A stretch of DNA of 64,000 nt from Parvibaculum sp. (GTDB taxonomy: Bacteria > Pseudomonadota > Alphaproteobacteria > Parvibaculales > Parvibaculaceae), in contig JAUSMV010000030.1 of NCBI GenBank assembly GCA_030645235.1, positions 1,360,988 to 1,424,987 of the forward strand. The letters are read 5' to 3'. How positions within the stretch are numbered: the stretch's first letter is position 1; each line of letters opens with the position of its first letter. This document shows, piece after piece, positions 33,033-55,411 of the stretch. Position numbers and translations under genes: made by a program. The notes under the pieces were generated by a model that did no database searches, was not told the DNA's origin, and saw only the letters and a program-made list of their open reading frames with translations.

Positions 33033-34415
33033 TCAACTGCCCAACCTCAACAGAGCCTCGCGCGTCAGATACCGGTCATAGGCGGACAAATCATTGACCA
33101 TCATCGTGTGGCCTCCGGTGACGGACTTCACCTGCTCCATGCGCGTCATCCGATCAGACTGAATGTCATGCGCGTGCAGCATGGTCCATGACCAATAGGG
33201 ATGCGCTCCGTCGCGCACCTCGTCATTCTTGCCTTCGTAAAGCGAGAAGGCGCCATCAAAGGAGCGGAACATTTCGCCGCGCCGGTCAAATGAGACCATT
33301 GTCAGCGGGAGCAATGTACGAGCGTCAAACCAAACCTGTTTTTTCGATATAGGCGCACGCGGATACTTGACCGGCTCGGCTTCGACGACAATGGCTTCGG
33401 GTACAAACTCAACATCCATGTCCCAGAATGTGTGTCCCCTTGGCCCGCCATGCGTCGTGTGCTCCCAATTGGGATGATCCGATTGCCAGCCCCCCGACAG
33501 AGCGGCCAGCGTCGGTCCGCGGTGCACGATCCTGTAATTGCCCCATGTCAAGAACGGATCGCCGGCACCCCAGGCATCTGACAGATAAAGAGACGAGCCG
33601 GCGATCAACGGCTCGAAGCGCTGGTTTGTCGGGAAGGTGCGAACGCGCTTGAACTCCGGCAAATAGCCATAAAGGTCGGGGAACTCGTTCTGGTCATAGG
33701 GCCAGATGTTCAGAAACGAAGTGCCCTGAATACTGTTAGGAGCGGTAAAAATAATACTCTGATAGCGCAGCTTGTCTTCATAGCCCGGCCAATAGGGCTT
33801 TGGATCAACCGAGACACGACCGACTGCTGCAAGCTCTGCCCAACAGGCTTCATAGCGATAGGCAACATTGCCCTGCGGTTCGAGATCATATTCCCTGATC
33901 GGATAGAAGGAGACATCATGCCGGCCCCAACTCAGCGTCAGTCCGGCGAAAACCTCAATGGCCGATTTTGGATCGGGAAAGGGATTTCCGCCGATCCATG
34001 GCTTGCCGTCATCCGTCACAACATTGCCCTGCGCATCAAAGCGGGCCCGACCTGTGTTGCGCAGCGTCGCCTCGATATATTCCCAGGGGCTCAGTTTGTA
34101 GATGTCTGTTGTGGTAGGAACGACACGCAGTTTGCGGCCCATATCGCGGATCTGTGCGTATCGGATCGGATCGAGAAGCTCTTGGATATGCTCGACATTC
34201 TGCGCATCGATCATCTGGCCTGTGCTGATCTTGCCGGATGTATAGTCATCAATCGAAAGCAGGTGATCGGGATAGGCTGCCGTCACATCGCCCGCGTGCG
34301 CGATGGTCGGCCATAAGGGTGCCAGCACGCCTGTTGTCAGCAATCCGCTGCCGACGCCTGCCAGGAATGAGCGCCGCGAATAATCCCGACCAAATTTGCG
34401 GATGTGATGAACCAT
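33033..34415 (-). CDS. DUF1329 protein with Tat signal, paralogue 1
   Basis: 460 residues from ATG 34415. The N-terminal DYSRRSFLAGVGSGLL is a twin-arginine signal, so the protein should be exported folded. The mature part is DUF1329, a LolA/LolB-like beta domain found next to DUF1302 barrels. It shares almost the whole order of motifs with the gene at 37242-38606 (PWIGGNPFPDP, LSWGRHD, FPTNQRFEPL), so the two are diverged duplicates. Together with the DUF1302, YCF48 and MMPL proteins it is predicted to move hydrophobic compounds across the envelope. An ATG at 34466 lies in a hairpin and was rejected. Confidence 0.85.
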   Translation of the reverse strand: MVHHIRKFGRDYSRRSFLAGVGSGLLTTGVLAPLWPTIAHAGDVTAAYPDHLLSIDDYTSGKISTGQMIDAQNVEHIQELLDPIRYAQIRDMGRKLRVVPTTTDIYKLSPWEYIEATLRNTGRARFDAQGNVVTDDGKPWIGGNPFPDPKSAIEVFAGLTLSWGRHDVSFYPIREYDLEPQGNVAYRYEACWAELAAVGRVSVDPKPYWPGYEDKLRYQSIIFTAPNSIQGTSFLNIWPYDQNEFPDLYGYLPEFKRVRTFPTNQRFEPLIAGSSLYLSDAWGAGDPFLTWGNYRIVHRGPTLAALSGGWQSDHPNWEHTTHGGPRGHTFWDMDVEFVPEAIVVEAEPVKYPRAPISKKQVWFDARTLLPLTMVSFDRRGEMFRSFDGAFSLYEGKNDEVRDGAHPYWSWTMLHAHDIQSDRMTRMEQVKSVTGGHTMMVNDLSAYDRYLTREALLRLGS

Positions 34416-34449
34416 ATTGTCTGTCAGACAGGCCGGAGACAAACAGAGC

Positions 34450-34476
34450 GGGAGCGGGCACGCCATGCCCGCTCCC
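34450..34476 (-). promoter_or_regulatory. Perfect hairpin between DUF1302 and DUF1329 genes
   Basis: GGGAGCGGGCA-N5-TGCCCGCTCCC is an 11-base-pair stem. On the minus strand it is not followed by a clear T tract, so an mRNA-processing or partial-attenuation role is more likely than full termination. Confidence 0.5.
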
Positions 34477-34488
34477 TTGTCAGCAGTG

Positions 34489-36150
34489 TCAGAACTGATA
34501 CGCGATGCGCGCGCTCAGCTCGTTTGCATAATCGAATGTCTGCATGATGTTCTTGTTGTTTTGTTTAGCTGCAACAATGTTTGCATAGACATCGACCGTC
34601 CATTGCGAGTTCGGACGCCATTTCACGCCCGGCTGCATCAGAATACCGCCCCGCACGTCAACCAGCGTTGTGAAATCGGCACGCCAGACGAGGTTCGGGA
34701 AGGGTTGCTGTAACGCGAGAGCGACAGCATGGAAGCCGTTCTCTACGCCCGTTGCACCATAGGAGACGTCGCCGCCCATGCCGTCGAGATGACGTCCGAA
34801 GAGATCGCTCTTCGATTTGTACATATATTCGGCGACGATGAAAGTCGCAGGCCATGACTGCGACTGTGTGAAGCGGTGATACTTTTCAAACACCAGCGAG
34901 GCGGTCACCTCATCCTCTGTGAGGAATGCCCGGTCGAGAGAGGGGCTGGTGAAAGTCTTGTCCGGCGTATATGCGACTTCGCCGCGCATCACCAACTGAT
35001 CGAACAACGTGTCCGGTTCGCCGCTGAAGACGTAGTTCGCGCCCACACCGAAAATATTTTCCTGCTTGAAAACGCGTTCAATGTGGCCGCGCAGCGGACC
35101 AAGGCCGCCGAATGTAGCGTCGAGTGTGGCCTGAGCCGTTGCGTAAGCAGCCGGACCGGTGCCGAAGCAACCGCTGGCAAGGTTCAATGCCGTGCAGACG
35201 CCGTTCACACCATCGAGGCGGGTGGTGGCGGCATATTTGAACCATTCTCCCGATGAGCGCACGCCTTCGCTTGCGTCGAACGAAAATGGCAGGCCGGCAA
35301 GCGGGCCGGCTGTTTCGTTGCGCCAGCGGAATACACCATCCGGATTCGTGCGGTGAACAGCAATGGCTTGCACCGAGAGATTATCCCAGAACTGAGCCTG
35401 TACACGCCCGCCGAAGTTCCAATCATCATTGGCGTCCTCGCTGGTATGGACCGTGAACTGGTCCGGGATGAAGTTGTAGGGCGTGCCGGGATTCGGCAGG
35501 ACCGACGGGCTGAACATCTGCGCAAAGCCCTCGAACTCGAACTGATCAAGCACGCGTAGCGAAGCACGGACGCCGGGTGATGCGACACGCTTGTCAGAAT
35601 ATTCTTCCGCTGCCGGATCAAGAATGAAATGGCGGCGCAGGTCGAGGCCGTTCGGCACGTCGAGCACACGGAAGAAGATGGCTTCACCCCAGGCAATCTG
35701 TTGATTACCGGCGCGGATCCAGAGCGGACCTTTGTTAAAATCAAGATAGAATGAGGGAAGATCGACCATATACTGGTCGCCGGATTCCTCCAGCCGATTG
35801 GCACGGTTGCCGCCAAATGTCGGCGCGCCAAAGAAATCACGACCGCTTGCGTCCTTATAGAGACCCCAATCGGCGAACCCGCGCAATTTTGCGCGCGCCG
35901 TCAGATTTTCGTTCAATTTGGCGCTGGCATCAATTTCGAGGCGTGTGGCAAAGAGATTCAGCAAATTGCTGGCATCATTGCCGTGGTACTTATTTTCCTG
36001 CTCGTTGTTCCGGTTTTCCTTTGAAGTCACTTTGGCGGCCATTTCCTGCCGCACAAATCCGGAAATATCAATGTCTGCTGCTTGTACCTGCTGACACACA
36101 AGCGCGGTCATCATGCCGGTGATCAGAGCCAGTATTCGATTTTTACGCAT
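34489..36150 (-). CDS. DUF1302 outer-membrane beta-barrel protein
   Basis: 553 residues. A signal peptide is followed by alternating amphipathic strands, and the protein ends IAYQF, with the C-terminal Phe expected of outer-membrane barrels. The DUF1302 family accompanies DUF1329 and MMPL genes in loci for breakdown of steroids and other hydrophobic substrates, and is thought to act in uptake. GGGAGGGGG precedes the ATG. It lies 25 bases after the YCF48-like gene. Confidence 0.85.
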   Translation of the reverse strand: MRKNRILALITGMMTALVCQQVQAADIDISGFVRQEMAAKVTSKENRNNEQENKYHGNDASNLLNLFATRLEIDASAKLNENLTARAKLRGFADWGLYKDASGRDFFGAPTFGGNRANRLEESGDQYMVDLPSFYLDFNKGPLWIRAGNQQIAWGEAIFFRVLDVPNGLDLRRHFILDPAAEEYSDKRVASPGVRASLRVLDQFEFEGFAQMFSPSVLPNPGTPYNFIPDQFTVHTSEDANDDWNFGGRVQAQFWDNLSVQAIAVHRTNPDGVFRWRNETAGPLAGLPFSFDASEGVRSSGEWFKYAATTRLDGVNGVCTALNLASGCFGTGPAAYATAQATLDATFGGLGPLRGHIERVFKQENIFGVGANYVFSGEPDTLFDQLVMRGEVAYTPDKTFTSPSLDRAFLTEDEVTASLVFEKYHRFTQSQSWPATFIVAEYMYKSKSDLFGRHLDGMGGDVSYGATGVENGFHAVALALQQPFPNLVWRADFTTLVDVRGGILMQPGVKWRPNSQWTVDVYANIVAAKQNNKNIMQTFDYANELSARIAYQF

Positions 36151-36175
36151 GTCCCCCTCCCAATCGTTTGCAGAA

Positions 36176-37168
36176 TTACTCTCCGACTTTCAGAATTCGG
36201 GCGTCATATCCGACAACAAACGGAACGGCTTGCGTTCCGTCGCCTGCGGCGGCGACACCCACGTACCAGCCCGTCGAGATGTCCTTGCGATCCACGACGG
36301 TCCAATTCAATCCCCGGTCCCTGCTGACCAACAGTGTGCGAATGCCGGTCGCAACCATGCGCCCGTCATCGCCGATCCAGACGTCAAGCAGGTTCTCGGG
36401 CCGCCCCGTGACAATCTTGCGCCACTCGCTTGTCCAGCCATCGCTGACCAGCACCGCTCCGTCTTGTCCCGCTGCCGCGCCACGCCCCTCGTCGGTCATA
36501 AACAGTCCGAACAGCGTTTCATCCCCGCGATGCAGCACATGCCAATCGCGACCCTCATTTTCAGATCGCAATACAAGGCCGAATTCACCGACGACGGTGA
36601 TGATGCCGGATGCGCTGATCTTGACGTCGTTGATATGCGGCTCTGCATCGTCCTTGCCGATACCAATCCAGGACGGCGCCACAGATTTCCATGTCGCGCC
36701 ATAATCCCGCGACAGCAGGATCGTGCCGAAACCACCTGTGGCGACGGCGATGCCGTTCGCCTTCATATCAACGGCCAACAATCTCGCGGTGCTTCCGCTC
36801 TCAACGGCCGTCCATCCACCGGACCCCGTGCGCTTGAATATCCGTCCGCCTTGTCCGACGGTGATCGCATGATTGCCCGACATCGCAACCGCCAGCAGCG
36901 CCAAGCCATCATTGATCATGGCTTCGGGTTTCCAGCTCTTTCCCTGATCATCAGTTCCAAGCACCAGCCCCGGCATGCCGACCGCAAGCCCCTTGTTCCC
37001 TTCAAGCGCAATACCGAACAAGGCCTCATGCGGAAATCCCGCATGCACCAGCGAGACTTCGGCGAGAGCAGGTTTCGTCAGTCCCATCACCAGCAAGGCG
37101 ACGAGACCTATAAGCGGCATGGAAACCCGCGAGAATGCTGCTTGCGTTGTCGAAAACCGGCGAGCCAT
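36176..37168 (-). CDS. YCF48/BNR-repeat beta-propeller protein
   Basis: 330 residues. An N-terminal hydrophobic segment (LIGLVALLVMGLTKPALA) indicates export. Repeats of the kind DQGKSWKP, DYGATWKSV, NEGRDWHVL and DRGLNWTVV mark a photosystem-assembly-like (YCF48) propeller. Members of this family recur between DUF1302 and MMPL genes in hydrophobic-compound degraders; here they probably form or stabilise the trans-envelope complex. Not photosynthetic. Confidence 0.82.
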   Translation of the reverse strand: MARRFSTTQAAFSRVSMPLIGLVALLVMGLTKPALAEVSLVHAGFPHEALFGIALEGNKGLAVGMPGLVLGTDDQGKSWKPEAMINDGLALLAVAMSGNHAITVGQGGRIFKRTGSGGWTAVESGSTARLLAVDMKANGIAVATGGFGTILLSRDYGATWKSVAPSWIGIGKDDAEPHINDVKISASGIITVVGEFGLVLRSENEGRDWHVLHRGDETLFGLFMTDEGRGAAAGQDGAVLVSDGWTSEWRKIVTGRPENLLDVWIGDDGRMVATGIRTLLVSRDRGLNWTVVDRKDISTGWYVGVAAAGDGTQAVPFVVGYDARILKVGE

Positions 37169-37205
37169 CTACTCAAACCCTCATCTGAAGTCTGTTATCA
37201 AAAAG

Positions 37206-37233
37206 GCGACAGGGCGACGCTTCACCCTGTCGC
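37206..37233 (-). terminator. Internal Rho-independent terminator (minus strand)
   Basis: GCGACAGGG (37206-37214) pairs perfectly with CCCTGTCGC (37225-37233). On the minus strand the stem is followed by CTTTTTG. It stands between the DUF1329 paralogue 2 and YCF48 genes, so the envelope operon is probably attenuated or split here. Confidence 0.72.
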
Positions 37234-37241
37234 TGCATTTG

Positions 37242-38606
37242 TCAGTCACCCAAGCGACGGATCGCCTGAATGGTCATGTACTCGTCGTAAACGCTGCCCA
37301 TGTTCCAGGCGGACTTGTATCCACCCGTCACTTCCTTGGCCTGAATGAAGCGGCTGATACGGTTTGTCTGAATGTCGTGGCTGTGCACATGCGTCCAGCT
37401 CCAAGCCGGATGCGAACCGTCGTTGACAGTGCCGGCAGGCCCGGAATACTGGCTGAAGGCCGGTTCAAAACTCTTCCAGACTTCGCCACGACGGTCGAAC
37501 GTCATGTAGGACACAAACATCATGTTGCGTGTGTCGATGGCGACCCGCTTTTTCGATACGGGCGCACGGGGATATTTGACAGGCTCAGCCTCGATCACAA
37601 TTGTCTCGGGGATGAGTTCCATATAGGTGTCGAAGAAGGTCTGGCCCTTCTGTCCGCCATGCACCGGGCGCGACCAATTGGGATCATTGAGGAAGTTGCC
37701 GGATACGGCGCCCAGCATCGGTTTGCGATCAATGATCTTGTAATTACCCCAGGTGAGGAACGGATCGCCTGCCGCCCATGCATCTGACAGAAAGATCGTG
37801 ATGCCCGGTACAAGCGGTTCGAAGCGCTGGTTGGTCGGGAAGTTGCGGACGCGCTTGAAGGCTGGCAGATATCCATAGAGTTCGGGAAACTGCGTCTGGT
37901 CATAGGGCCAGATATTCAGGAACGACGTGCCCTTTGTATCATTTGGCGCCGTAAACCAGACCGACTGATAACGCAGCTTGTCTTCATGACCCGCCCAGTA
38001 GGGACCATCCTTCAGCAGCGCAACGGCATTCTGTTCCGCCCAGACAAAGTCATACTGGTAGGAGAGATCACCTGCGGGCGAGATATCCCAGTCGCGCACT
38101 GCATAGACCGACTGATCATGACGGCCCCAACTGAGAGTGAGGTTGGCAAAGGCTTCCGCGCCGGTTTGCGCATTCGGGAAGGGATTACCGCCGATCCAAG
38201 GTTTGCCGTCGCTCGTGACGACATTTCCAGTGGCGTCGAACTTCGCCTTGCCGTTATTTGCAAGCGTCGCTTCCAGATATTCGTGCGGAAAGAGCTTTGT
38301 CACATCGGTCGTCGTCTCGACGATGTGGATGCGCCGCCCCATTGTCTTCACCTGATTGTATGCAATCGGATCAAGCAAATTCTTGACGGCCTCAACATTG
38401 TCGGCTGTCACAATATCGCCGGGCTTGATCGCACCTTTGGTATAGGCCTCGATATGCAGCAATTCTTCCGGATAGGCTTTCGTGATCTCACCGGATTTGG
38501 CAATGGTTGACCACAGCGGTGCCAATACGCCCGCTGCCGCCCCAATTGCCGCTTTGCCCATAAAAGATCTGCGGCTGTAGTCAAAGTCATACTTCTTAAT
38601 ACGCAT
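37242..38606 (-). CDS. DUF1329 protein with Tat signal, paralogue 2
   Basis: 454 residues from ATG 38606 (GGGAGGG seven bases upstream). N-terminal DYSRRSFMGKAAIGAAAG is again a twin-arginine signal. The mature region parallels the other DUF1329 protein (PWIGGNPFPNA, LSWGRHDQSV, FPTNQRFEPLVPG), with differences in the acidic middle part. Two DUF1329 proteins flanking the barrel gene suggests that they either form a pair or handle different compounds. It follows the MMPL gene by 86 bases. Confidence 0.85.
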   Translation of the reverse strand: MRIKKYDFDYSRRSFMGKAAIGAAAGVLAPLWSTIAKSGEITKAYPEELLHIEAYTKGAIKPGDIVTADNVEAVKNLLDPIAYNQVKTMGRRIHIVETTTDVTKLFPHEYLEATLANNGKAKFDATGNVVTSDGKPWIGGNPFPNAQTGAEAFANLTLSWGRHDQSVYAVRDWDISPAGDLSYQYDFVWAEQNAVALLKDGPYWAGHEDKLRYQSVWFTAPNDTKGTSFLNIWPYDQTQFPELYGYLPAFKRVRNFPTNQRFEPLVPGITIFLSDAWAAGDPFLTWGNYKIIDRKPMLGAVSGNFLNDPNWSRPVHGGQKGQTFFDTYMELIPETIVIEAEPVKYPRAPVSKKRVAIDTRNMMFVSYMTFDRRGEVWKSFEPAFSQYSGPAGTVNDGSHPAWSWTHVHSHDIQTNRISRFIQAKEVTGGYKSAWNMGSVYDEYMTIQAIRRLGD

Positions 38607-38692
38607 TTCAGCACCCTCCCTGCTTTCCCCCTGCGAGGACTTTTCAAGATCGGCGACGCTTTTCACAAGGTGGCGGCACCAATGGTATTCGT

Positions 38693-41125
38693 TCAGTCAG
38701 CTCCCAACGGCGCTCTGCCATTGTCAGTCATCATAAAACTCGAAAGATCCACGTTTTCCCCAAGCGCAATGTCCTTGCGAAGCATGAAGGCCGGGCGGAT
38801 CAACCAGACAAGCAGCGGCACAACGATCAGTGCAATGATCATATTGATCAGCATCACGAGCACGAGCAGCAGTCCCATGTCCGCAAGAAATTTGAGATCC
38901 GACAGGAAATACCAGGGCAAAATGCCGATCAGGATGATAATGGCCGTAAAGAAAATTGCCTTGCCGGTCGTCGCGATGGCCGCGACAATGGCTTCGCCGT
39001 GATTTTTCCGGACCTGAAACTCTTCAAATATCCGGCTGAGCAAATAGATGCCATAGTCGATGCCCACGCCCAGGCCGATGGCAAGAATGGGCAACGTGTT
39101 GACATCAAGACCGATGTCAAGTTTTTCCATCACCGCGCCCAGAAACAGATTCGATATGTTCACGGGGATAAGCAGCAACAAGCCCGCCACAACCGACCCA
39201 TAGGCGTAGCTACACGACACCAGCATAACGATGTTGAGCAGCACAAGAATGATGGTCTGATAGTGCAGGACCGTATCGTTGATTGACTGCTGGAGCGCAA
39301 TCGTGCCCGTGCCCAGCCGAATCCGGAACGCAGAAAAATCGGTCCCGATCGTCTTGAGTGCCTCATGGGCAGAAGCAAGAGCTGCATCAACGGTCTCTTG
39401 CTTATTGTCCTTGTACCAGAGAGATACGGAAGAATGCTGCATCTCGAAATCGGTAACATTGGAAAAAGCTTTTGGACTCGTGCCGAAGAGAAGCGCGCCG
39501 GCTGCCGCTGCGGTGGCGCTGTCATTCAAATCGAGTGGCGCCCATCGCGGATCGCCACCACTGAACAAGCGGTTGGCCTCAGGCAAATAGTCGGCAAATG
39601 AAAGCGTTGCGACCGGCGGGTTTTCGCCGCGCTCCATCAGGTATTGCAGCTTATACATCGCGGCCACTGTCTCGGCCTGACGCGCCACACGGGTCGGGTT
39701 GTAGGGGTCTTTCGCCTCGAAAATAATTTCAAGCGTGTTGAGACCGGGGAAATTGCGATTGATGTTGGCGACCGACGTGTTGTACTCAGAATCGTCCCAT
39801 AGAAGTTTTGATCCTTCCACCGGATTGCCGATCTTGAGTTGCAAGGACAGATCGATTGCCGCGCCGACGCAGGCGATCAGCACAACCGTCGTTACCCAGG
39901 CTGTGCGGCCGTGCGAGAGCTTGGCGATAAGCTTGAGCAGAAATCCGATAAAACTGTGACCGCTGCCATTCGCGCCGCCAACCATGCGGGCCACGTTTTT
40001 TGGCTCGGGCAGAAAGGTGAGGACCAGCGGCGTCAGGAAGACATTCGCGGGAATAAGGATAACGGCCCAGAAGCCGCAGAAGAGGGCAAAGCGTTCCATG
40101 GTCGGAATGGGCGCTACAGCGATCAGAAAGAGGCCGGCAGCATCGGTGACAATCCCCAAAACGCTCGGTGCCATCATGACGCTCAGCGCGACCTCGGCGG
40201 CTTTCTTCTTGTCTCCGATTACGTGCAGGATTTCATAATAGCGCTCAATGTATTGCACCGAGTGACTGAAGCTGCGCGCGGTAAGCAGCAGCGGCACGAC
40301 CATAATGAGCGGTTCAATTGGCAGTTTAAGCCAACCGACAAAGCCGAAACCCCAAATCGCGGCGACGAAGCTCGCGATCAGGGGCGCAACCACCCCTGCA
40401 ACATTGCGCATATAAAAAATCAGAGACAGAAGGAGCGCCAGGCCGGTGACAGCAAAGATGCCCAGCATCTGGCTTTCGTAGCGATAGACCCAACCCGTCA
40501 GAACCGGCTGCCCGGCCATGTAGATATTGTGGTCTGCGTCGCGGCTCTCTTCGACAAGTTTCTGCAGATGCTCAAACGCCTTGCCATAATCGAGAATGCG
40601 CTCGATGAAGGTAATCTTGATGAGCGTTGCAGAACCGTCACCTGAAATCAGAAATTTCTGCGCATTGGGCGCCATCTGCACATTACGTTTGAACTGTGCA
40701 ATTTCATCCGATGTTGCGGGCGGATGATCACCCATCAGAGGCTGTGTGTTGATGCCGTCGGGCGTTGCCTCTGCGTAGCGCGCTTTTTCTGTCGAGATCG
40801 ACAATATCTGATCATGGTCAACGCCGGGCGCGAGATCGGCGTCGCGCGTCATGTCCCAGACTTTTTTCAGAGTTTCTGCGTTGTAGATCGAGCCGCTTTT
40901 GCTCTGCACCATGATAGTTGCGGTGAGCGGATTGCCGAAGTTCGGATGATCCTTGTACACCTGAACAAAAGGGTGATCCCGCGGCAGCAGATCGGAAAAT
41001 ATTGTGCGTAGCTCAACATCCTTGAGGCCGACGACAAAAAACAATGTCAGGCCCGTGGCAATCGCCAAAACCAGCCAACGAAACTCAAGTGTAAAACGTG
41101 CAAGCTTGTACCGATAACTATCCAA
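38693..41125 (-). CDS. MMPL/RND-type inner-membrane transporter
   Basis: 810 residues with a typical two-repeat RND architecture: a first hydrophobic helix, a large periplasmic loop (about residues 40-225), then a group of five or six helices, and the same again. Motifs include GLGVGIDYGIYLLSR in the second half. These hopanoid/lipid-type RND proteins move hydrophobic molecules with proton energy. TTG start at 41125, preceded by GGGGGG. It begins the envelope operon and is divergent from the CoA ligase, with operator candidates in between. Confidence 0.86.
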   Translation of the reverse strand: MDSYRYKLARFTLEFRWLVLAIATGLTLFFVVGLKDVELRTIFSDLLPRDHPFVQVYKDHPNFGNPLTATIMVQSKSGSIYNAETLKKVWDMTRDADLAPGVDHDQILSISTEKARYAEATPDGINTQPLMGDHPPATSDEIAQFKRNVQMAPNAQKFLISGDGSATLIKITFIERILDYGKAFEHLQKLVEESRDADHNIYMAGQPVLTGWVYRYESQMLGIFAVTGLALLLSLIFYMRNVAGVVAPLIASFVAAIWGFGFVGWLKLPIEPLIMVVPLLLTARSFSHSVQYIERYYEILHVIGDKKKAAEVALSVMMAPSVLGIVTDAAGLFLIAVAPIPTMERFALFCGFWAVILIPANVFLTPLVLTFLPEPKNVARMVGGANGSGHSFIGFLLKLIAKLSHGRTAWVTTVVLIACVGAAIDLSLQLKIGNPVEGSKLLWDDSEYNTSVANINRNFPGLNTLEIIFEAKDPYNPTRVARQAETVAAMYKLQYLMERGENPPVATLSFADYLPEANRLFSGGDPRWAPLDLNDSATAAAAGALLFGTSPKAFSNVTDFEMQHSSVSLWYKDNKQETVDAALASAHEALKTIGTDFSAFRIRLGTGTIALQQSINDTVLHYQTIILVLLNIVMLVSCSYAYGSVVAGLLLLIPVNISNLFLGAVMEKLDIGLDVNTLPILAIGLGVGIDYGIYLLSRIFEEFQVRKNHGEAIVAAIATTGKAIFFTAIIILIGILPWYFLSDLKFLADMGLLLVLVMLINMIIALIVVPLLVWLIRPAFMLRKDIALGENVDLSSFMMTDNGRAPLGAD

Positions 41126-41215
41126 CGCTTATTCCCCCCTGATTCTATCCACCGCTCAAACGTCGGCGGTTCAGAACCCGCGTTCTTATGCTGACCGCCC
41201 CCAGTCGGCATTGCC

Positions 41216-41231
41216 CCGCCCTAAAGGATGG
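41216..41231. promoter_or_regulatory. Putative cluster operator C (MMPL operon)
   Basis: CCGCCC-TAAA-GGATGG fits the CCRCCC-N4-GGGTGG pattern with one mismatch in the right arm. It lies 91 bases upstream of the MMPL start. Confidence 0.5.
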
Positions 41232-41429: not shown

Positions 41430-41445
41430 CCGCCCAAACGGGTGG
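41430..41445. promoter_or_regulatory. Putative cluster operator A (CoA ligase)
   Basis: CCGCCC-AAAC-GGGTGG. The central CCC-AAAC-GGG is nearly palindromic. It lies 84 bases upstream of the CoA ligase start and shares its pattern with three other promoters in the cluster. Confidence 0.6.
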
Positions 41446-41528
41446 GGGGGACCTTTCAGGGCGGCCCTAGTCTTTTGTCAAAATTTCAGGATTCACGCGC
41501 TGAATCCGCAAAATACAGGCGAGGGAAT

Positions 41529-43529: not shown

Positions 43530-43536
43530 ATAAAAG

Positions 43537-43567: not shown

Positions 43568-43613
43568 GAAGTTCCGGAGGAGGAGGGAGTACTCCGGATA
43601 GAATATCAGCCGT

Positions 43614-44360
43614 TCATATGAACGCGGTTTTTAAGTCGGAGCACCGCCTGAGAACCACTTCCGGCTCCATATCATTCGGCACTTCAACAAAGAGTTTCTT
43701 GCCCTGCGGCACCTCATCAGAATTACGCCACCATGCAGATGGCAAAATCTGCCCGTCCTTGTCCCGAAAGATCGCATCAAATCCCTCAGGGACATCAACC
43801 CCGGCGGCCTCTTCACGCAGCAGCAGCACAGATGCACACTGATAATGTTCGGCCACATTGGTCAGCGGCTCCATGAACTCAAGCGCGCGCGGGTCGATTT
43901 CATTGATGCGTATATAGTCGATGCCTTCCCGATAGACTGCCCGCACGAGACCGGTCAATGCCATCGACAGATCATCGAGAGTGTTTTCATCAACTGGTGC
44001 ATCACCCATAAATCGCCGCGCAATCAGACCCGGCCCCGGCAGGGAAAGCGCAATGGGCATTGCGCCTGATCCACCCAGCACCACGTCGATACCCCGGGCC
44101 ACATAGCCTGCGAGAGCGGATCCGCTCACAAAATCTTCGATCGCCTCAACGTCGTTACCGACTGAAACAGCCGGTGACTTTTCCAGCAATGCGTCCATTG
44201 CCGCATCAATGCTGATCTCTATCAATTTGAGTTTCAACAAAGACGCCAGCTCACGATGAAACAACCCGAGCTCCTCAGGTTTTGTCCATGGATTTTCGCC
44301 GCCCCGCAAAACCGCTTGGCCAAACGCCATGCCATCGACCCAACAGGAAGGGACCAACAT
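43614..44360 (-). CDS. Unknown protein, candidate small (epsilon-like) subunit of the ketone carboxylase
   Basis: 248 residues, soluble, with no signal peptide. I recognise no catalytic motif. It contains a helical N terminus (HRELASLLKLKLIEIS), a glycine-rich stretch (VLGGSGAMPIALSLPGPGL) and a possible nucleotide-fold pattern, unproven. It starts three bases after the HyuB-like gene ends, so it is translationally coupled. In the acetophenone carboxylase operon the fifth gene encodes a small subunit unrelated to the others. Position and size argue for an equivalent, not sequence. Confidence 0.55.
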   Translation of the reverse strand: MLVPSCWVDGMAFGQAVLRGGENPWTKPEELGLFHRELASLLKLKLIEISIDAAMDALLEKSPAVSVGNDVEAIEDFVSGSALAGYVARGIDVVLGGSGAMPIALSLPGPGLIARRFMGDAPVDENTLDDLSMALTGLVRAVYREGIDYIRINEIDPRALEFMEPLTNVAEHYQCASVLLLREEAAGVDVPEGFDAIFRDKDGQILPSAWWRNSDEVPQGKKLFVEVPNDMEPEVVLRRCSDLKTAFI

Positions 44361-44363
44361 CGG

Positions 44364-46619: not shown

Positions 46620-46637
46620 GAAGGCCTCCCGATTTTT

Positions 46638-48773: not shown

Positions 48774-48808
48774 AAAATCTCCCTGATCTCGTTTTGATCA
48801 ATGACCGG

Positions 48809-49204
48809 TCAATGTGTATGAGTAAGGGGTGTGACATCGGGGCCGAGCACCGCCGCAGTCAATGGTTCCCGCTCTGCCCATTGCGCCTTCAAGGCATCAA
48901 TATCGAGCTCGATATCAAAGGCGGGCGGATGGCCCGGCGGCAGATATTCAACTTCGGCCAAATGTCCGCAGTTCGGGCAGCAATATTCGAGAATGCGGCA
49001 CCAGTCGGCGTCGGGCGCGAAGGTAAAGTCATATTTTTCCTGATCGAGAATGGGCGCATGAATATCCTGCGGCAGCCGCTCCTGCACCAGCAGACCTGTC
49101 TTGTAGTTTCCCCGGGCCGGACCGAGGTTGTGATTGCAATTTGAACATTCCCAGACTTCATGCGTCAGATCGATGTTCAGCGCCGCAGTTACGAAAACTT
49201 TCAT
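48809..49204 (-). CDS. Acetone carboxylase gamma-type zinc subunit
   Basis: 131 residues. The two metal-binding clusters ECSNCNHNLG and EYCCPNCGHLAE form a zinc-ribbon site like that in acetone/acetophenone carboxylase small subunits. The presence of this subunit separates ketone carboxylases from ordinary hydantoinases and oxoprolinases. It sits between two HyuA-like genes. GGAG nearby precedes the ATG. Confidence 0.85.
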   Translation of the reverse strand: MKVFVTAALNIDLTHEVWECSNCNHNLGPARGNYKTGLLVQERLPQDIHAPILDQEKYDFTFAPDADWCRILEYCCPNCGHLAEVEYLPPGHPPAFDIELDIDALKAQWAEREPLTAAVLGPDVTPLTHTH

Positions 49205-49214
49205 CTGTATCTCC

Positions 49215-51137
49215 TCAGCGTCGCAAAAAGATGTCGTGATTTTCGCTGATCGAAAAACGCCAGCCCGGCCTCACATAGGTCGTGAAGAACTCTTCCTCGA
49301 CAAGGCAAGGCCCATCAAACCAATCGCCAGGCGAAAGGCTTTCAAGTTTGAAAATCGGCAAGTCATTGCGCCCCGCACGCACGCCGTCGGGCACGGCCTT
49401 GCGCGTTTCTTCACAGCGCGCGCCGGCAAGTTTGATTTTCTCGATTGGCCTTGTTGCCTGCAGTTCGAGCCAGCACTCTGAATTGGCGCGGTCGTGAGTT
49501 CCGTTGAGCGCGCTGCGGACAAAGCCAGAGCCGTTTTTGGTCATCAATGAGTAGCTGAGACGGCATTCGTCCAGAGAAAAGCCTTCCGCCAGCATGCCGC
49601 GTCGCGCCTGTTCGAGCAGATCGGCTTTTGCGCAATCCAGCGCATCATCAACCTGACGCGCCAGTTCCACGACATAGCTGTGCTGGATGTCACTGAACGA
49701 AATGCCGTAAGCGCTGAAGACCGCGGCATATTTGGGGATGAGCACCGTGTTCATGCCCGCCAGTTCCGCCACGCCGCAAGCGCTCATCGGGCCCGCACCG
49801 CCAAATGCCAGAAGGACAGTGTCTTTACTTGTGCTCTTATCAATGCCGAGTTCGCCCGCAATCTTAGCCTGATAGGCCGTCATCATCGCGTCGATCGCCT
49901 GTGTCATGTTGAGCTTCAGGGGATCTCCGACATGCGTCATGATGGATTTTTCCGCGCGTGCGCGATCAAGCAACATCTGCCCGCCGAAATAAGAGGCCGG
50001 GTCAAGAATGCCTTCGACGAGCAAAGCGTCGGTGATCGTTGCCTGCGTGCCGCCGCGTGCGAAACAAGCAGGGCCCGGCACGGAGCCGACACTTTCAGGA
50101 CCAACCTTTACGATGCCATTTTCAGCGCGGATAATTGACCCGCCGCCCGCGCCAATACTCTTTATCTCGGACAGTGAAATAGAAACCGGCGCGCCTTCAA
50201 TTTCGCCAAACTGCTGCCGTTTGACTTCCATCCGATCAAACAACGCGATGTCGGTCGTCGTGCCGCCGATGTCGATTGACACCGCCTGCTCCAGACCGTA
50301 GTGGCGTAGAAGCACCTCTCCGCCGACGACACCGCCTTGCGGGCCGGACGAGTATGTTTTTACAGCGACGGTTTTTGCAACGCGCGTCGAGTTCCCGTCA
50401 TTGCGGAAGATCAGAAGCGGGTTCTTGGCACGATGAATGCGTAGCTTGTTCTCGGCGTTATAGAGAAATTTCTCCATTGCCGGATGCAAGAAAGCATTGA
50501 TGAGACTCGCCCATGCGCGCTGCTCCGGCGTACCCATCTGCGATAGTTCTGCGGAAAAAAGCAACGGCACCGCGCCCAGAAGGTGGCGCGGGAAGGCTCT
50601 GTAAAGAAGGCGTTTTGCGGCCTTTTCATCTTCTGCAACCGTTGCACCCGACAAGGCCACAACAATCCGGTTGGCGCCGTTTGAAACGAGTTTTGACACC
50701 GCCGATACGAGATCAGTGCGACCGTTCCCGCGCCAGTCATGCGGGAGAACACGCACGCGGTCACCAACCAGCGATTCAAAGAGAGACGGTGCGGCATTGA
50801 ATACAAGCGTGTGAAAATTTTCGTCATCTGTCAGAAGCCCGATGCGCGGGCCGATGCGCTGAACGATGGCGTTTGTGCCTTGCGTGGTCGAATAGCGGAT
50901 ATGATCGACCGAGGCCAGAAGTTCTGCCACATCGACTTCGCCGGAAATTTTTTGCGAGAGAGCCTCGAGGCTCTTTATGAAGCACTCTGTCAGATCATGT
51001 GGTGTTGTGATCGTTTTGGTATGAATGGTGGTCACACCATCGGTCGCACAGACGTCAGTGAGCGTGCCGCCATTATCGATACTGATCAGATACCCCAAAA
51101 CGCCCGCCCCCAGTTTGCCGTTTTTCTTGACGCTCAA
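49215..51137 (-). CDS. Hydantoinase A-family carboxylase subunit, first copy
   Basis: 640 residues. ATPase motifs are LISIDNGGTLTDVCATDG and VSIDIGGTTTDIALFD, and AFGGAGPMSACGVAEL matches the ASKHA adenosine site. It is shorter than the other HyuA-like subunit (711). The N-terminal loop reads DNGG where DIGG or DVGG is usual. First gene of the five-gene operon. The assigned start is a TTG and is uncertain; a later start is possible. A site resembling the cluster operator lies 56 bases upstream. Confidence 0.86.
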   Translation of the reverse strand: MSVKKNGKLGAGVLGYLISIDNGGTLTDVCATDGVTTIHTKTITTPHDLTECFIKSLEALSQKISGEVDVAELLASVDHIRYSTTQGTNAIVQRIGPRIGLLTDDENFHTLVFNAAPSLFESLVGDRVRVLPHDWRGNGRTDLVSAVSKLVSNGANRIVVALSGATVAEDEKAAKRLLYRAFPRHLLGAVPLLFSAELSQMGTPEQRAWASLINAFLHPAMEKFLYNAENKLRIHRAKNPLLIFRNDGNSTRVAKTVAVKTYSSGPQGGVVGGEVLLRHYGLEQAVSIDIGGTTTDIALFDRMEVKRQQFGEIEGAPVSISLSEIKSIGAGGGSIIRAENGIVKVGPESVGSVPGPACFARGGTQATITDALLVEGILDPASYFGGQMLLDRARAEKSIMTHVGDPLKLNMTQAIDAMMTAYQAKIAGELGIDKSTSKDTVLLAFGGAGPMSACGVAELAGMNTVLIPKYAAVFSAYGISFSDIQHSYVVELARQVDDALDCAKADLLEQARRGMLAEGFSLDECRLSYSLMTKNGSGFVRSALNGTHDRANSECWLELQATRPIEKIKLAGARCEETRKAVPDGVRAGRNDLPIFKLESLSPGDWFDGPCLVEEEFFTTYVRPGWRFSISENHDIFLRR

Positions 51138-51192
51138 ATCGTGGCGTCATCAGCTTGTACTGGGAATGTGAGCCGGTTCTTGCGCGGCGACC

Positions 51193-51208
51193 CCACCCGA
51201 AAGGATTG
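51193..51208. promoter_or_regulatory. Putative cluster operator E (carboxylase operon)
   Basis: CCACCC-GAAA-GGATTG: a perfect left arm and a right arm differing from GGGTGG at two positions. It lies 56 bases upstream of the carboxylase operon. Weakest of the four sites. Confidence 0.4.
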
Positions 51209-51224
51209 TTACGGATGTTTTAGG

Positions 51225-53993
51225 CTATTCGATCAGACCAAAATGACGGGCCACTGAAACCGCCTGCATCCGGTTTGCAATCTGCAGCTTTTCAAAAATA
51301 TTGCGCAGATGCCATTTGACCGTATTCGTCGACAGCGACAACCGGTCAGCCAGTGCCTTATTGGAAAAGCCGTTGGAGACGAGATGCAATATTATGCGTT
51401 CGCGATCAGTTAGCTGTTCGAAAAGCTGAGGCGAGAACGTGTCCTGATGTGCATTGTCCTCGTCATCGTCCATGGCAACCGGCATGAACTCACCCGCCTC
51501 CGAAAGAAGCCTGTCCAAATAGGCGGAAAGGGCATCCTTCTGCGGCAAGTCGGGGAATTTTGGCAGGGCGGCCCGCGTCTCCTTAAGGAGACGCACGCTC
51601 TGAGGCCCTTCGTCGAGTATCAGGCGAATGAACTGATCTGAAACACCGATATTCAGCACCTCTATCAATGCACGGCGGGCGGCGTTTGTCTGACCTTCGA
51701 TGTTCAGCGACAGGGCGAGCATCAGGTTGAGCTTCATTACACGACGCATGCGACGCTGCAACTTCGCCTTCCGCATTTCAGACTGAAGAAGCCCGCGCGC
51801 CTCGGCGTGTTGACCTGAGTGAATCAGCAGCCGCGCATAAGTGATTGTTCGCGACTCTATTTCTTCGGCATGAAACAGGAAGTCATCATTCCCCTGTTCA
51901 CCCTCACTTGATTCTAGCACAGCAAACCGTGCACGGGCTTTTTCGATGTCACCAACCAGCGTCGCCTGACGAACCAATTCAGATTTGGCGTAGGTCACCA
52001 CGCGCGGCAAATTATAGCGGTGACCGAGATACATGGCCCGGTCGAGGATTTCTTCTGCCTCACGTTCGCGGCCCTGCAACATGGCAATACGTGCTGTCGT
52101 CAGAAACGTGACGGACACGGGATCGACAATGGCCTGTTGTTCGATCAACAGGGAATAATCGTTGAGAAGCATTTCAGCTTCGGAAATGCAATTCTTCTCG
52201 TATAGCGCTTCCGCCAGATAGGCCGCGATCACGGCACCGGCCGCAACGCTCGTCCCGACACCGGATTCGGTTTTGTTCAGGGCGAGCTTCAAACTCTTGA
52301 TCGCCTCATCGTTACGTCCCATACCGCTCAAAACGGCACTGTAAATCCATTCGCAATAGGAGAGACCGAAGAAATTATGCGCTTCGTCATGCAGCGCACG
52401 TGCTTTGGACAGCGTCTCCCGCGCCTCTTCAAGGTGGCTCTTTGCATATTGCCAGAATGCTTTTGCGTTGAGCGCCACTGCATATTCCATGCAGCGGTCC
52501 TCTGTCAGGAGGTTCAGAGTTTCATTGGCGACACGGCCAATGTCGTCGACCTTATCCTGAGCCGCATAGATATAAATGAGGGTGTAGTAGTGAATGCCCC
52601 ATTTTTCAGGTCCGGCATTCTCTTGCTTCAGCATCGCTTCGCGCGCTGTTGCAATACGGATCGCTTTTTGAAACTGACGCCGAAAACCGTAGGCGACAAT
52701 GGCTGCTTTCAGAATCTCTTCGTATTTTTGAATGGTGTCGTCCGAAAGCCGATCAACAAAACGTACGATCAGATCAAGGCGCTCTTCCGTCACAAGGCGG
52801 CCGATGCTGCTGTTCAGAAGTTCAGCCGCATTATCCTGATCCTGCGCTTCCAGATAGTGAACGATTGCATCTTCGGAAAGGCCGTGCGCGGCATACCAGT
52901 CCGCGATCCGCCTCTGACGTTCCAGAATTTCCGGTTCACCCACTTCGCGCCGCAACTTGGTCAGCAGCACCTGACGGAAGACAACGTGGAATCGGTACCA
53001 TTGATGGTCCTGATCAGTGGGCGTCAGAAAGAGACCAAAGTGCTCGATCTCGTCAATACAATGACGGCCATCAGCACGACCCGAAATATGCTCAAGCAAT
53101 TCAGGACAAATGCGTTCCGGCATGCAGGCATCGAGCAATATGCTTTTCATGTCCTCCGACAAATGATCAAAAACGTCGGTCGCCAGAAATTCTACGAGAT
53201 CGGGCGTCACGCCCGTGCTCGGTATGCTTTGCGAGCGCTGAGGACGTCCGCCACGCATGGCCAGACGAATGCATTGAAGCGCTGCTGGCCATCCATCTGT
53301 GTTGCGATGGATTTCATCTATTTCTTCCGCTGTCAGACCGCGGAACTCTTTGAAAAATTCAGCGGTCTCGCTGGCACGAAATCGCAATCCTTCAACGTTG
53401 ACGACCACCGCTTGCTCCCTCAACTGGAGCCGAGGAAGATTAATTGCAGGCAGGATTCTGGTGCCGATGCAAATCTGAACATCCGACGGCAGAACGCGCA
53501 CGAGCTGCGCGATCACCGCTTCAAGTCCGGGATGAGACGCCTGTTCGAAATTGTCGATGACAACAATCATACCCGCTTCGACGCCTTGCGAGGCGTTTAC
53601 GAAATCCTTGACCGAGGCGGGTGCCGCTTCATTTTCGGCAGACAGTACGCCGCCTGCATGTCGCGCCTCCCGCACGGCTTCGCACAGAAGCCGAAGAAAA
53701 TGCGCAGGATCTGAGGAATGGGGTTCAAGATGGATCCAGGCAACCTGACTTCCCTGCGCCACACGATAGGCGCAGTACTGTCGCAACAAAGTCGTCTTTC
53801 CAAAACCCGCCGGGCCCTGCACCAGAATAAGACGAACAGCGGCGTGATTTTTCAACCGGTCAAGCTGCTGCTTGCGAAGAACAAGCATGTTCGTCGTCAT
53901 CCGCCCGGCGGCGGCGCCAACACGACCCTTCTTTGAGGGCACTTTTTCTGCGGCGTGTATTTTTTCACGCCGCGCTCCGCCCATCTTTACCAC
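51225..53993 (-). CDS. MalT-type (LAL) LuxR family ATP-dependent activator
   Basis: 922 residues. The N terminus holds a Walker A P-loop (LVQGPAGFGKTTLLRQ, about residue 58) and a Walker B-like VIDNFEQ. A long helical-repeat sensor region follows (residues 380-800), and the C terminus has a LuxR helix-turn-helix (LTDRERIILHLVSNGFSNKA, SLSTNTVKWHLRNIF). MalT-type proteins bind an inducer plus ATP and activate promoters. It is flanked by the carboxylase operon and a reductase gene in the same orientation. GTG start at 53993 with AGGA; an ATG at 53984 is also possible. Confidence 0.92.
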   Translation of the reverse strand: MVKMGGARREKIHAAEKVPSKKGRVGAAAGRMTTNMLVLRKQQLDRLKNHAAVRLILVQGPAGFGKTTLLRQYCAYRVAQGSQVAWIHLEPHSSDPAHFLRLLCEAVREARHAGGVLSAENEAAPASVKDFVNASQGVEAGMIVVIDNFEQASHPGLEAVIAQLVRVLPSDVQICIGTRILPAINLPRLQLREQAVVVNVEGLRFRASETAEFFKEFRGLTAEEIDEIHRNTDGWPAALQCIRLAMRGGRPQRSQSIPSTGVTPDLVEFLATDVFDHLSEDMKSILLDACMPERICPELLEHISGRADGRHCIDEIEHFGLFLTPTDQDHQWYRFHVVFRQVLLTKLRREVGEPEILERQRRIADWYAAHGLSEDAIVHYLEAQDQDNAAELLNSSIGRLVTEERLDLIVRFVDRLSDDTIQKYEEILKAAIVAYGFRRQFQKAIRIATAREAMLKQENAGPEKWGIHYYTLIYIYAAQDKVDDIGRVANETLNLLTEDRCMEYAVALNAKAFWQYAKSHLEEARETLSKARALHDEAHNFFGLSYCEWIYSAVLSGMGRNDEAIKSLKLALNKTESGVGTSVAAGAVIAAYLAEALYEKNCISEAEMLLNDYSLLIEQQAIVDPVSVTFLTTARIAMLQGREREAEEILDRAMYLGHRYNLPRVVTYAKSELVRQATLVGDIEKARARFAVLESSEGEQGNDDFLFHAEEIESRTITYARLLIHSGQHAEARGLLQSEMRKAKLQRRMRRVMKLNLMLALSLNIEGQTNAARRALIEVLNIGVSDQFIRLILDEGPQSVRLLKETRAALPKFPDLPQKDALSAYLDRLLSEAGEFMPVAMDDDEDNAHQDTFSPQLFEQLTDRERIILHLVSNGFSNKALADRLSLSTNTVKWHLRNIFEKLQIANRMQAVSVARHFGLIE

Positions 53994-54067
53994 TGGTCCT
54001 TTACTCCCCTCAGGACAGGGTTAGGCTTTTCGCCTTCTATTTTTATCTGTAAGCGGACGGTCCGTCT

Positions 54068-55087
54068 TTAATTCGGCACAGCGCCGATACGCACCATCAG
54101 CTTTCCGTTATTGCCTCCGGTATAGAGAAGGCGCAATGCGTCGAGCGCCCCATCCAACCCTTCTTCCATATGAATGCGGTACTTCAGCTGACCGGACCGC
54201 ATCCATTCCGCAAGCTTTTCATGATATGTCGCAAAATGCGCGGCATAGTCGAGGATGACAAACCCCTCAATAACGAGCCGCTTCATGATGACATTGCGAA
54301 ACATATACGGGCCGGGCACCGGACCTGTTGCATTGTAGGTCGAGATCAGACCGCAAATGACGACGCGACCGTAATTGTTCATGAGCGTAAGACCGGCATC
54401 GAGAAATTCGCCGCCGACATTTTCAAAATGGACGTCGATACCATCGGGTGCCTCGCGCCGGAGACCCTCCAGCACATCTTCCTCACGATAGTTAATCGCT
54501 GCATCAAACCCGAGATCCTCAGTCAGCCACTGACATTTTTCGCGTGACCCGGCGATGCCTATAACTCTGCAACCATGAATTTTAGCGATCTGACCAACCA
54601 ATGCACCAACGGCACCAGCAGCAGCGGTGACCACAACGGTATCACCGGGCTTGGCTTTGCCGATTTCGAGCAAACCCACATAAGCCGTCGGCCCCGCCAC
54701 GGCGAGTGTGCCGAAAGCGTCTGCGAGCGATACACCCTGAAGCGACACGAAAGGAGAAAACCCTTCGCCGTCGGTCACGATATAGTCCGACCATGTGCTC
54801 AGGCCCGTCGCAAGCGAGCCCACGGGAAAGTCCGGGTGACGCGACTTCACCACTTCGCCGATCAGGAATCCCAACATACGAGCGCCGACCGGCAGCGGCT
54901 CCATGTATGTATCCCAATCGCTCATCCAAACGCGGTTAGTCGCATCGAGCGACATATAGATCGAGCGAAACAGGAACTCTCCGTCCTGTAATTCCGGCAC
55001 GGGTTCAGAACGCAAGACCAATGTGTCGTGCTCAATTTCGCCGGTTGGGCGTTTGTTGAAATACCAATGACGAGCGACCTGCGACAT
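54068..55087 (-). CDS. NADP-dependent oxidoreductase, MDR family (CurA/double-bond reductase-like)
   Basis: 339 residues from ATG 55087 (GGGGAGG six bases upstream; an ATG at 55093 abuts the ribosome site). NADP-binding motif is VTAAAGAVGALVGQIAK; no catalytic zinc ligands, as in zinc-independent MDR enzymes. The closest family is leukotriene B4/2-alkenal reductases, which reduce the C=C bond of enones. In this cluster it may convert an unsaturated ketone to the saturated ketone used by the carboxylase. That role is inferred. Confidence 0.87.
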   Translation of the reverse strand: MSQVARHWYFNKRPTGEIEHDTLVLRSEPVPELQDGEFLFRSIYMSLDATNRVWMSDWDTYMEPLPVGARMLGFLIGEVVKSRHPDFPVGSLATGLSTWSDYIVTDGEGFSPFVSLQGVSLADAFGTLAVAGPTAYVGLLEIGKAKPGDTVVVTAAAGAVGALVGQIAKIHGCRVIGIAGSREKCQWLTEDLGFDAAINYREEDVLEGLRREAPDGIDVHFENVGGEFLDAGLTLMNNYGRVVICGLISTYNATGPVPGPYMFRNVIMKRLVIEGFVILDYAAHFATYHEKLAEWMRSGQLKYRIHMEEGLDGALDALRLLYTGGNNGKLMVRIGAVPN

Positions 55088-55411
55088 ATCCATCCTCCCC
55101 TTTTTTCCTCAATCGTGGGAGCAAGCGGAGATATCTTACCCACCCAAAGGGGTGGGGCGACAATGGGATTCACAAGCCCTTGTTTTGAATAGAACTTAAG
55201 GCAAAGTCGGCGTCAGGATGATTGCTATTCATCACTAAAGCCGATTGATATTGGTCAAGTATCACTGATCTTGCTCCCAACGTTGGACCACGCGGACGGC
55301 CTCGCTCCCATAAAGTTCCAGACCCAAGCGATGAACCTATGCGCCGCAAGCCCCCTAACGATGGAGACTTGTGCGATCAGCAAGACGGTCTTGAAACAGC
55401 AGGTGATTGAT
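55088..55411. other. Region between the cluster and tRNA-Ala
   Basis: About 320 bases with no convincing gene. It holds the palindrome at 55140-55155 and otherwise shows no sign of an integrase remnant or repeat of the tRNA 3' end that I could detect by eye. Confidence 0.4.
55140..55155. promoter_or_regulatory. Putative cluster operator B (reductase gene)
   Basis: CCACCC-AAAG-GGGTGG is a perfect palindrome in its arms. It lies 53 bases upstream of the MDR reductase start. Best match of the four CCRCCC-N4-GGGTGG sites. Confidence 0.6.

Follow-up and report, generated by a model that had tools for sequence, protein, structure and literature searches.

Which reaction, and which ketone, does a gene block in Parvibaculum serve in which an operon resembling that of acetophenone carboxylase (Apc) lies against a set of envelope genes? 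The block occupies positions 33033-55093 of the stretch analysed here (the window, 64,000 nucleotides of contig JAUSMV010000030.1, assembly GCA_030645235.1, Parvibaculum sp.). A preliminary description had read it as an undescribed island for the oxidative or carboxylative breakdown of a bulky ketone, joined to an uptake module for hydrophobic compounds; as a whole, that interpretation is partly supported. The island is real and recurrent: beside an Apc-type enzyme and its 3-oxoacid CoA ligase it encodes an enone reductase, a regulator and an envelope set of the AmeABCD type. The best explanation of the whole, to which we give a probability of about 0.62, is a five-subunit, ATP-dependent, biotin-free ketone carboxylase acting in the pathway proposed in the Discussion.

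Results

Organization of the island

The list of open reading frames (ORFs) and Pfam/NCBIfam profile scans of the window's proteins give 13 genes in three blocks:

54068-55093, minus strand: CurA-like NADPH enone reductase (NF058644, 341.5 bits)
51225-53993, minus strand: MalT-type LuxR regulator, upstream of apcA (TPR_MalT 2.2e-26, GerE 7.8e-18)
49215-51137, minus strand: apcA-like, alpha-prime subunit, second ASKHA kinase with the proposed bicarbonate site (best PDB match 5l9w_b, 3.8e-83; Pfam Hydantoinase_A)
48809-49204, minus strand: apcB-like, gamma subunit with four zinc-type cysteines (5l9w_C, 4e-31; Pfam Acetone_carb_G)
46638-48773, minus strand: apcC-like, alpha subunit, proposed ketone kinase with pocket T-I-H-P-I-H-L (5l9w_B, 3.7e-162; Hydantoinase_A)
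44364-46619, minus strand: apcD-like, beta subunit (5l9w_A, 2.6e-84; Hydantoinase_B)
43614-44360, minus strand: apcE-like, epsilon subunit, predicted uroporphyrinogen-decarboxylase-like barrel, fast evolving (fold match to ApcE 9fou)
41529-43529, plus strand (ORF 41442-43529): bal-like 3-oxoacid CoA ligase of the acetoacetate-CoA ligase family (NF002937, TIGR01217, 4wd1)
38693-41125, minus strand: ameD-like RND/MMPL transporter, 12 hydrophobic segments and two large loops (MMPL 3e-22)
37242-38666, minus strand: ameB-like DUF1329 protein with Tat-type SRRSF motif (DUF1329 2e-63; TAT_signal_seq)
36176-37168, minus strand: ameC-like YCF48/BNR repeat protein (1.3e-10)
34489-36150, minus strand: ameA-like DUF1302 protein, AmeA being a predicted outer-membrane protein (4.7e-30)
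33033-34466, minus strand: second DUF1329 protein (1.2e-57)

Block 1 runs on the minus strand from the curA-like gene through the regulator to apcA, apcB, apcC, apcD and apcE; block 2 is the single CoA ligase on the plus strand; block 3, again on the minus strand, holds the transporter, DUF1329, YCF48, DUF1302 and second DUF1329 genes. All the parts named in the preliminary description (five-gene carboxylase, ligase, MalT regulator, enone reductase, envelope set) are thus in place. Intergenic gaps are short both within the carboxylase genes (apcA-B 10, B-C 35, C-D 18 and D-E 3 bases) and within the envelope set (22-73 bp), so the minus-strand genes likely form two transcription units, with the ligase divergent. 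The CurA-like reductase scores below the NF058644 cut-off of 440 and is assigned at family level only.

A five-subunit enzyme of the acetophenone carboxylase type

Positions 43614-51137 code for all five subunits of an Apc-type enzyme. Their order, apcA-B-C-D-E (alpha-prime, gamma, alpha, beta, epsilon), matches Apc; the likeness in gene order noted in the preliminary description holds, and extends to composition and sequence. In a sequence search of the Protein Data Bank (PDB), Apc was the closest solved relative of each core subunit, above acetone carboxylase and the hydantoinases. Alignments show that the four cysteines of Apc gamma (C20, C23, C76 and C79 in the window) and 4/4 possible metal ligands of beta (D89, H152, D155 and H177 in ApcD) are kept, and the ASKHA phosphate and adenosine motifs DxGGT, D[VMI]GGT and GxxPGP can be read by eye in the translations of both alpha and alpha-prime. 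The alpha fingerprint R/KERiDsxG reads RERVAET(G), with R-E-R and G present and D-s absent. The product left as a small unknown in the preliminary description is, judging from its predicted structure, the ApcE epsilon subunit: the model (mean pLDDT 69) had ApcE 9fou as its top Foldseek match, at 18% identity, and a PDB search with its sequence gave no match at E up to 10. A URO-D family protein is also encoded in a haloarchaeal apc cluster.

The island resembles ApcABCDE and Bal of Aromatoleum aromaticum EbN1 (PDB 5l9w, 9fou; PMC5214803), the single Apc enzyme characterised at the time of its structure paper, in having five subunits ABCDE with an adjoining CoA ligase and in sharing the gamma cysteines, beta ligands and epsilon fold. 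It differs from EbN1 in its pocket residues, in a ligase of the acetoacetate-CoA family placed on the opposite strand, in the attached envelope set, and in a MalT-type regulator where EbN1 has predicted two-component systems. Acetone carboxylase (AcxABC; PDB 5svb, 5m45), whose product is a beta-keto acid, shares relatives of alpha, beta and gamma with the island but has three subunits, without the alpha-prime and epsilon that the island carries. ATP-dependent hydantoinases and oxoprolinases have two subunits without gamma, whereas the island has gamma; that identity was dropped on subunit make-up. The biotin-dependent alkyl-phenyl ketone carboxylase of PMC8461187 was also put aside, being a different kind of enzyme; PMC6987047 does no more than cite work on a ketone carboxylase.

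Scores against the NCBIfam Apc equivalog models fall below their cut-offs (ApcA 350.1/1250, ApcC 573.8/1500, ApcD 333.7/1500 bits). Over the part compared, the first ~500 residues of the EbN1 and acetone carboxylase chains, window ApcC is 43% identical to EbN1 Apc alpha and about 30% identical to an acetone carboxylase alpha relative.

A near-invariant pocket of another kind

The authors of the Apc structure proposed an acetophenone pocket in alpha (PMC5214803), L81 F281 N282 P285 I333 Q344 T345, which in the window reads T I H P I H L, a change at 5/7 positions. We found 72 loci via two ApcD peptide patterns, and these therefore sample the present clade and not the whole family. The pocket T-[VILM]-H-P-I-H-L occurs in 68/68 ApcC rows, made up of the window and the 67/72 loci with near-full ApcC, one of which (L084) has Glu for the second His. 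It is also present in 5/5 bacterial plasmid copies aligned, those of R. jostii RHA1, Rhodococcus sp. 008, R. qingshengii, Neorhizobium petrolearium and Cupriavidus necator. Two haloarchaeal pockets read TMHPIYM (Halorientalis) and MFNPIES (Haloterrigena), the latter nearer to Apc. The two histidine positions are V/A in acetone carboxylase, M/D in N-methylhydantoinase and N/Q in oxoprolinase, read by eye from an alignment.

A quick tree separates the clade from EbN1 Apc (SH-aLRT 100), both outgroup branches being very long; the border between clade and true Apc is drawn from this tree, EbN1 and the two haloarchaeal sequences. A search of 299 phylum genomes with the NCBIfam ApcC model gave three at E<=1e-130, the window's genome included; the other two carry the clade pocket, so no EbN1-type copy surfaced among the 299. 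To judge from sequence, then, the island enzyme is built like Apc and works like it, yet is probably not acetophenone carboxylase; it belongs to a distinct, uncharacterised Apc-type subclade with its own proposed ketone pocket. As the Apc pocket and curated score tests fail, the name acetophenone carboxylase should be avoided in annotation, and a hydantoinase label is likewise unsuitable. Plasmid relatives in Rhodococcus (L182, L190, L184, L189; RHA1, DK17 and others) are annotated as hydantoinases, and an SCP2 sterol-binding protein gene lies near the RHA1 and DK17 copies. Clade members also occur in bins named Cytophagaceae, Verrucomicrobia and Desulfovibrionaceae (L092, L106, L112), through transfer or misbinning.

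Recurrence and linkage

Within the order, apcE and apcB are found in 12/40 genomes: 12/27 in the window's genus and 0/13 outside it. The order-level and family-level searches covered the same 40 genomes, and the rarity beyond the genus rests on those 13. In 11/11 apc-bearing relatives curA-malT-apcABCDE is collinear (for G015, curA was taken from the named twin L058). The bal and envelope genes come next in nine of these, six reaching the second DUF1329 gene, two continuing as far as fetched and one having an insert before bal; of the remaining two, G037 ends its contig just past apcE and in G018 the remaining 4.8 kb holds other ORFs. A Nevskiales contig (G061) carries curA, malT, apcABCDE, bal, two other ORFs and then a full ame set with second DUF1329, its ApcC being 79% and its AmeD 62% identical to those of the island. 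The preliminary description had proposed a search for the same synteny in other genomes and would have yielded to parts that are never together; since carboxylase and envelope set recur jointly within the genus and in other classes, that objection fails.

The second DUF1329 gene is found upstream of apcA, at a distance below 1 kb, in 13/72 loci, all outside the genus and mostly in gammaproteobacterial bins or strains, and the window's second DUF1329 is 62-69% identical to these copies. We counted linkage at 40 apcC places from 29 genomes, which were selected for holding apc and come from 29 of the 72 loci; the stronger DUF1329 rows (E down to ~1e-94) were used, partials <1200 bp were removed and one apcC row of 38% identity was dropped. 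A full-length island-type DUF1329 gene stands within 10, 15 and 25 kb of 13, 16 and 20 of the 40 places, where random placement would give 0.54, 0.76 and 1.18. As the genomes are related, these counts should not be read as independent events. Mapped on the ApcC tree, a label for 'ame or DUF1329 gene in stretch' (25 rows) requires 9 changes against 21.0 when shuffled, and a hand-set 'ame adjacent' label, which missed some loci, 7 against 17.7; stretches ended by contig ends were scored as lacking ame/DUF1329.

The CoA ligase, thiolases and the likely product

The gene that the preliminary description had called 3-oxoacid-CoA-ligase-like bears that name out: the island ligase exceeds the curated acetoacetate-CoA ligase cut-offs (NF002937, 910 bits against 639; TIGR01217, 764 against 521) and matches acetoacetate-CoA ligase 4wd1 at 5.8e-199. 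Its ORF opens at 41442, and an ATG at 41529, after a purine-rich stretch, was judged by eye the likelier start. The island copy is one of at least two: an acetoacetate-CoA ligase-like gene 41% identical to it lies elsewhere in the window genome.

In other genomes the activating enzyme beside apc varies. Other AMP ligases adjoin apc at L055, L081 and, by annotation, in Halorientalis, and an annotated CoA-transferase A/B pair does so in Neorhizobium petrolearium. At four loci, three of them sphingomonad and one from Solimonas, curA and malT are separated by a thiolase gene; the one product scanned matched NF006102, 'lipid-transfer protein', at 650.7 bits (cut-off 436) together with Pfam thiolase domains, and we take it to be of the SCPx type. 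In Halorientalis, genes annotated as coding for a thiolase and an OB-fold protein come after apc. The different activating enzymes and the nearby thiolases suggest that the carboxylation product is a 3-oxo acid, which would then be activated and cleaved. In Haliea (L064:15169-22232), apcABCDE-bal-curA is followed by genes for an acyl-CoA dehydrogenase, a carboxyltransferase, an enoyl-CoA hydratase and a biotin carboxylase, a set that recalls the catabolism of leucine or acyclic terpenes; a branched acyl-CoA product, considered from this likeness, was set aside as coming from one locus only.

The envelope set

The genes at 33033-41125 form an AmeABCD-type RND set (DUF1302, DUF1329, YCF48-like, RND) with a second DUF1329 gene. 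AmeABCD of Castellaniella defragrans (PMC6394551) comprises the same four protein types, likewise beside genes for hydrophobic-compound catabolism. Its order is A-B-C-D, whereas the island has D-B-C-A with the extra DUF1329, and its partners are monoterpene genes where those of the island are carboxylase genes. A closer match in order is found on plasmid RPME01 of Methylibium petroleiphilum PM1 (NC_008826), where MMPL-DUF1329-YCF48-DUF1302-DUF1329 follow each other exactly as in the island, at 38-64% identity. The plasmid (locus L185) has two inverted copies of this cassette, near rubredoxin genes and a LuxR-type regulator, with no apc in the region fetched; one copy is broken by an annotated IS3-like element.

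Deletion of ame in Castellaniella lowered monoterpene tolerance and raised Nile Red accumulation, from which its authors concluded export (PMC6394551); an ameB insertion mutant cited in the same paper was also impaired in growth on monoterpenes. The word 'uptake' in the preliminary description is therefore not supported, the one studied set of like make-up having been judged an exporter. We infer that the island set would move a hydrophobic compound or its toxic excess, with export better supported than uptake. Both DUF1329 proteins (37242-38666 and 33033-34466) begin with a twin-arginine-like SRRSF motif, and thus may be exported folded.

Two further loci bear on such sets. In Haliea (L177:10563-15452), genes that to the eye begin as for an ExbB-type protein, and two others, separate the ame genes from the second DUF1329 gene, as if the envelope set were energised there. 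In the genome of Panacagrimonas perspica (G056, that of locus L115) the island DUF1329 has 22 matches and ApcC five, one of them at 38%, which amounts to a rich store of such cassettes.

Substrate clues

The island is present in P. lavamentivorans DS-1, which grows on alkanes and surfactants (PMC3368416). In the available portion of that report, DS-1 gave no growth on hydroxyacetophenone, cyclohexanone, cycloalkanes or several aromatic acids, nor on camphor, geraniol, citronellol, linalool, menthol or eucalyptol. Simple aryl ketones and those terpenoids are therefore disfavoured as growth substrates, and long-chain, branched, steroid or other terpenoid ketones are left open as candidates.

A type I Baeyer-Villiger monooxygenase is encoded in 22/27 genus genomes (E<=1e-100), including genomes without apc. 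In 8/12 island-bearing genomes it lies on the apcE contig within ~21 kb (for instance L030:9161-10975, L034:10002-11804, L036:8787-10670, L038:8433-10250 and L032:1679-3517); the window genome has it at C58:264579, unlinked to the island. Its nearest NCBIfam model is pentalenolactone D synthase, with a score below the cut-off. At L034, the one annotated locus, TRAP transporter genes stand beside it. The nearby monooxygenase hints at the metabolism of ketones and is a weak pointer to bulky ones. We rejected it as a part of the island, given its presence in genomes without apc and its unlinked position in the window genome. The 'oxidative' breakdown of the preliminary description is thus unsupported, the window's island itself holding no oxygenase.

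Genomic setting

In the window the island adjoins tRNA-Ala (55412-55487). This tRNA and a gene for an FYDLN protein stand together in 12/12 relatives fetched, with aroA at the site in 11; the twelfth contig ends before aroA. No island gene was next to tRNA-Ala in these 12 as fetched, the L161 stretch ending ~0.5 kb past the tRNA. Four of the 12 carry the island elsewhere in the genome, and the window genome alone has it by the tRNA, so it was moved or gained separately. Integration at tRNA-Ala was considered and no mobile island is claimed: the window held no direct repeat of the tRNA region of >=13 bases, and integrases were not searched for.

Discussion

Gene content and order, homologies, conserved ligands, the changed pocket and the linkage are observations; around them we propose the following pathway, whose substrates would be hydrophobic ketones of an aliphatic, branched or terpenoid-like class and not acetophenone. 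Where needed, the CurA-like reductase would first saturate an enone. The alpha subunit would phosphorylate the enol of the hydrophobic ketone and alpha-prime would form carboxyphosphate from bicarbonate, gamma, beta and the UROD-fold epsilon helping to join both activated parts into a 3-oxo acid. The divergent acetoacetate-CoA-ligase-like enzyme would convert this to a 3-oxoacyl-CoA, which a thiolase encoded elsewhere could cleave to acyl-CoA and acetyl-CoA. The MalT-type protein would serve as substrate sensor, and the AmeABCD-like set would transport the hydrophobic compound, or a toxic excess of it, through the envelope.

Several observations weigh against this pathway. At 751 aa, ApcD exceeds the Apc beta length in print, which is ~50 aa shorter than the acetone carboxylase beta of ca. 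720 aa (PMC5214803), so the shorter beta typical of Apc is missing. The proposed bicarbonate residues of alpha-prime agree with Apc at 1/3 positions: in the ApcA alignment of 56 rows (55/72 loci and the window), 51 read SDD and five GDD, against EDK in Apc. As two of the three differ, the bicarbonate assignment of alpha-prime is unproved. The window's island has no thiolase. The growth failures of DS-1 conflict with the substrate hints, since every ketone and terpenoid named in the available part of PMC3368416 gave no growth. Finally, 20/40 apcC places, some on short contigs, lack an island-type DUF1329 within 25 kb, and the genes listed near the copies in Rhodococcus and haloarchaea include no such DUF1329 either. 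The cassette in turn also occurs without apc (twice on the Methylibium plasmid, for example); the envelope set is thus a frequent and not an obligate partner of apc.

Could the island encode an ordinary carboxylase of acetophenone, an aryl methyl ketone, with a benzoylacetate-CoA ligase? The same five genes in the same order, a CoA ligase and core subunits nearest to Apc among solved structures speak for it. That reading is nonetheless improbable: the 43% identity of ApcC over the part compared, its separate clade, the change of 5/7 pocket residues, scores far below the NCBIfam Apc cut-offs (573.8 of 1500 for ApcC) and a ligase of the acetoacetate-CoA family all argue against it. So does DS-1, which has few aromatic genes and fails to grow on hydroxyacetophenone or the aromatic acids tested (PMC3368416; acetophenone itself is not named in the portion available). 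The family of the ligase, with scores above acetoacetate--CoA ligase cut-offs, would fit a carboxylase of a small aliphatic ketone (acetone or butanone, for instance), whose product a plain acetoacetate-CoA ligase would activate. We regard this as equally doubtful, given an Apc-type make-up instead of the three-subunit Acx, the linkage with an enone reductase gene and with envelope genes for hydrophobic compounds, and another acetoacetate-CoA ligase-like gene in the genome. An ATP-dependent hydantoinase, oxoprolinase or lactamase is very improbable. Relatives are publicly annotated as hydantoinase or oxoprolinase and belong to a common fold family, but the island has the gamma, alpha-prime and epsilon that hydantoinases lack (PMC5214803), and its H/H pocket pair, by eye, differs from M/D of N-methylhydantoinase and N/Q of oxoprolinase.

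More serious, if still unlikely, is the possibility that the envelope set is a separate detoxification exporter, a neighbour of the carboxylase standing outside its pathway. It would agree with the reduced monoterpene tolerance of the AmeABCD deletion strain (PMC6394551), with the same five-gene order in Methylibium PM1, where the region fetched has no apc, and with the many DUF1329 copies of Panacagrimonas away from apc. On the other side stand the linkage to apc, ~24x chance within 10 kb though among related genomes, and the second DUF1329 gene directly upstream of apcA in 13/72 loci.

Beyond this locus, we tentatively propose, at somewhat less than even odds for the joint claim, that ATP-dependent ketone carboxylases fall into three classes, Apc, Acx and the T-[VILM]-H-P-I-H-L clade, the last marked by its two-histidine pocket. 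With it, bacteria from two or more phyla, and perhaps haloarchaea too, would use carboxylation in place of Baeyer-Villiger oxidation to break down bulky ketones of aliphatic, branched, terpenoid or steroid-side-chain type, and in many Gram-negatives the enzyme would be coupled to a dedicated AmeABCD-type envelope conduit. The word 'undescribed' in the preliminary description is only partly right: both halves of the island belong to described families, and our searches of the open-access literature returned no description of the union of apc with the envelope set or of the enzyme subclade.

The near-invariant, different pocket gives an annotation rule for relatives now labelled hydantoinases and opens the search for the substrate to direct test. 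The repeated association with an RND-DUF1302-DUF1329 set would offer a way to ask what cargo this poorly understood envelope machinery carries. If the substrate is indeed a bulky ketone, the pathway would replace Baeyer-Villiger breakdown by a route that needs no oxygen, and would fix bicarbonate onto unactivated ketones without biotin.

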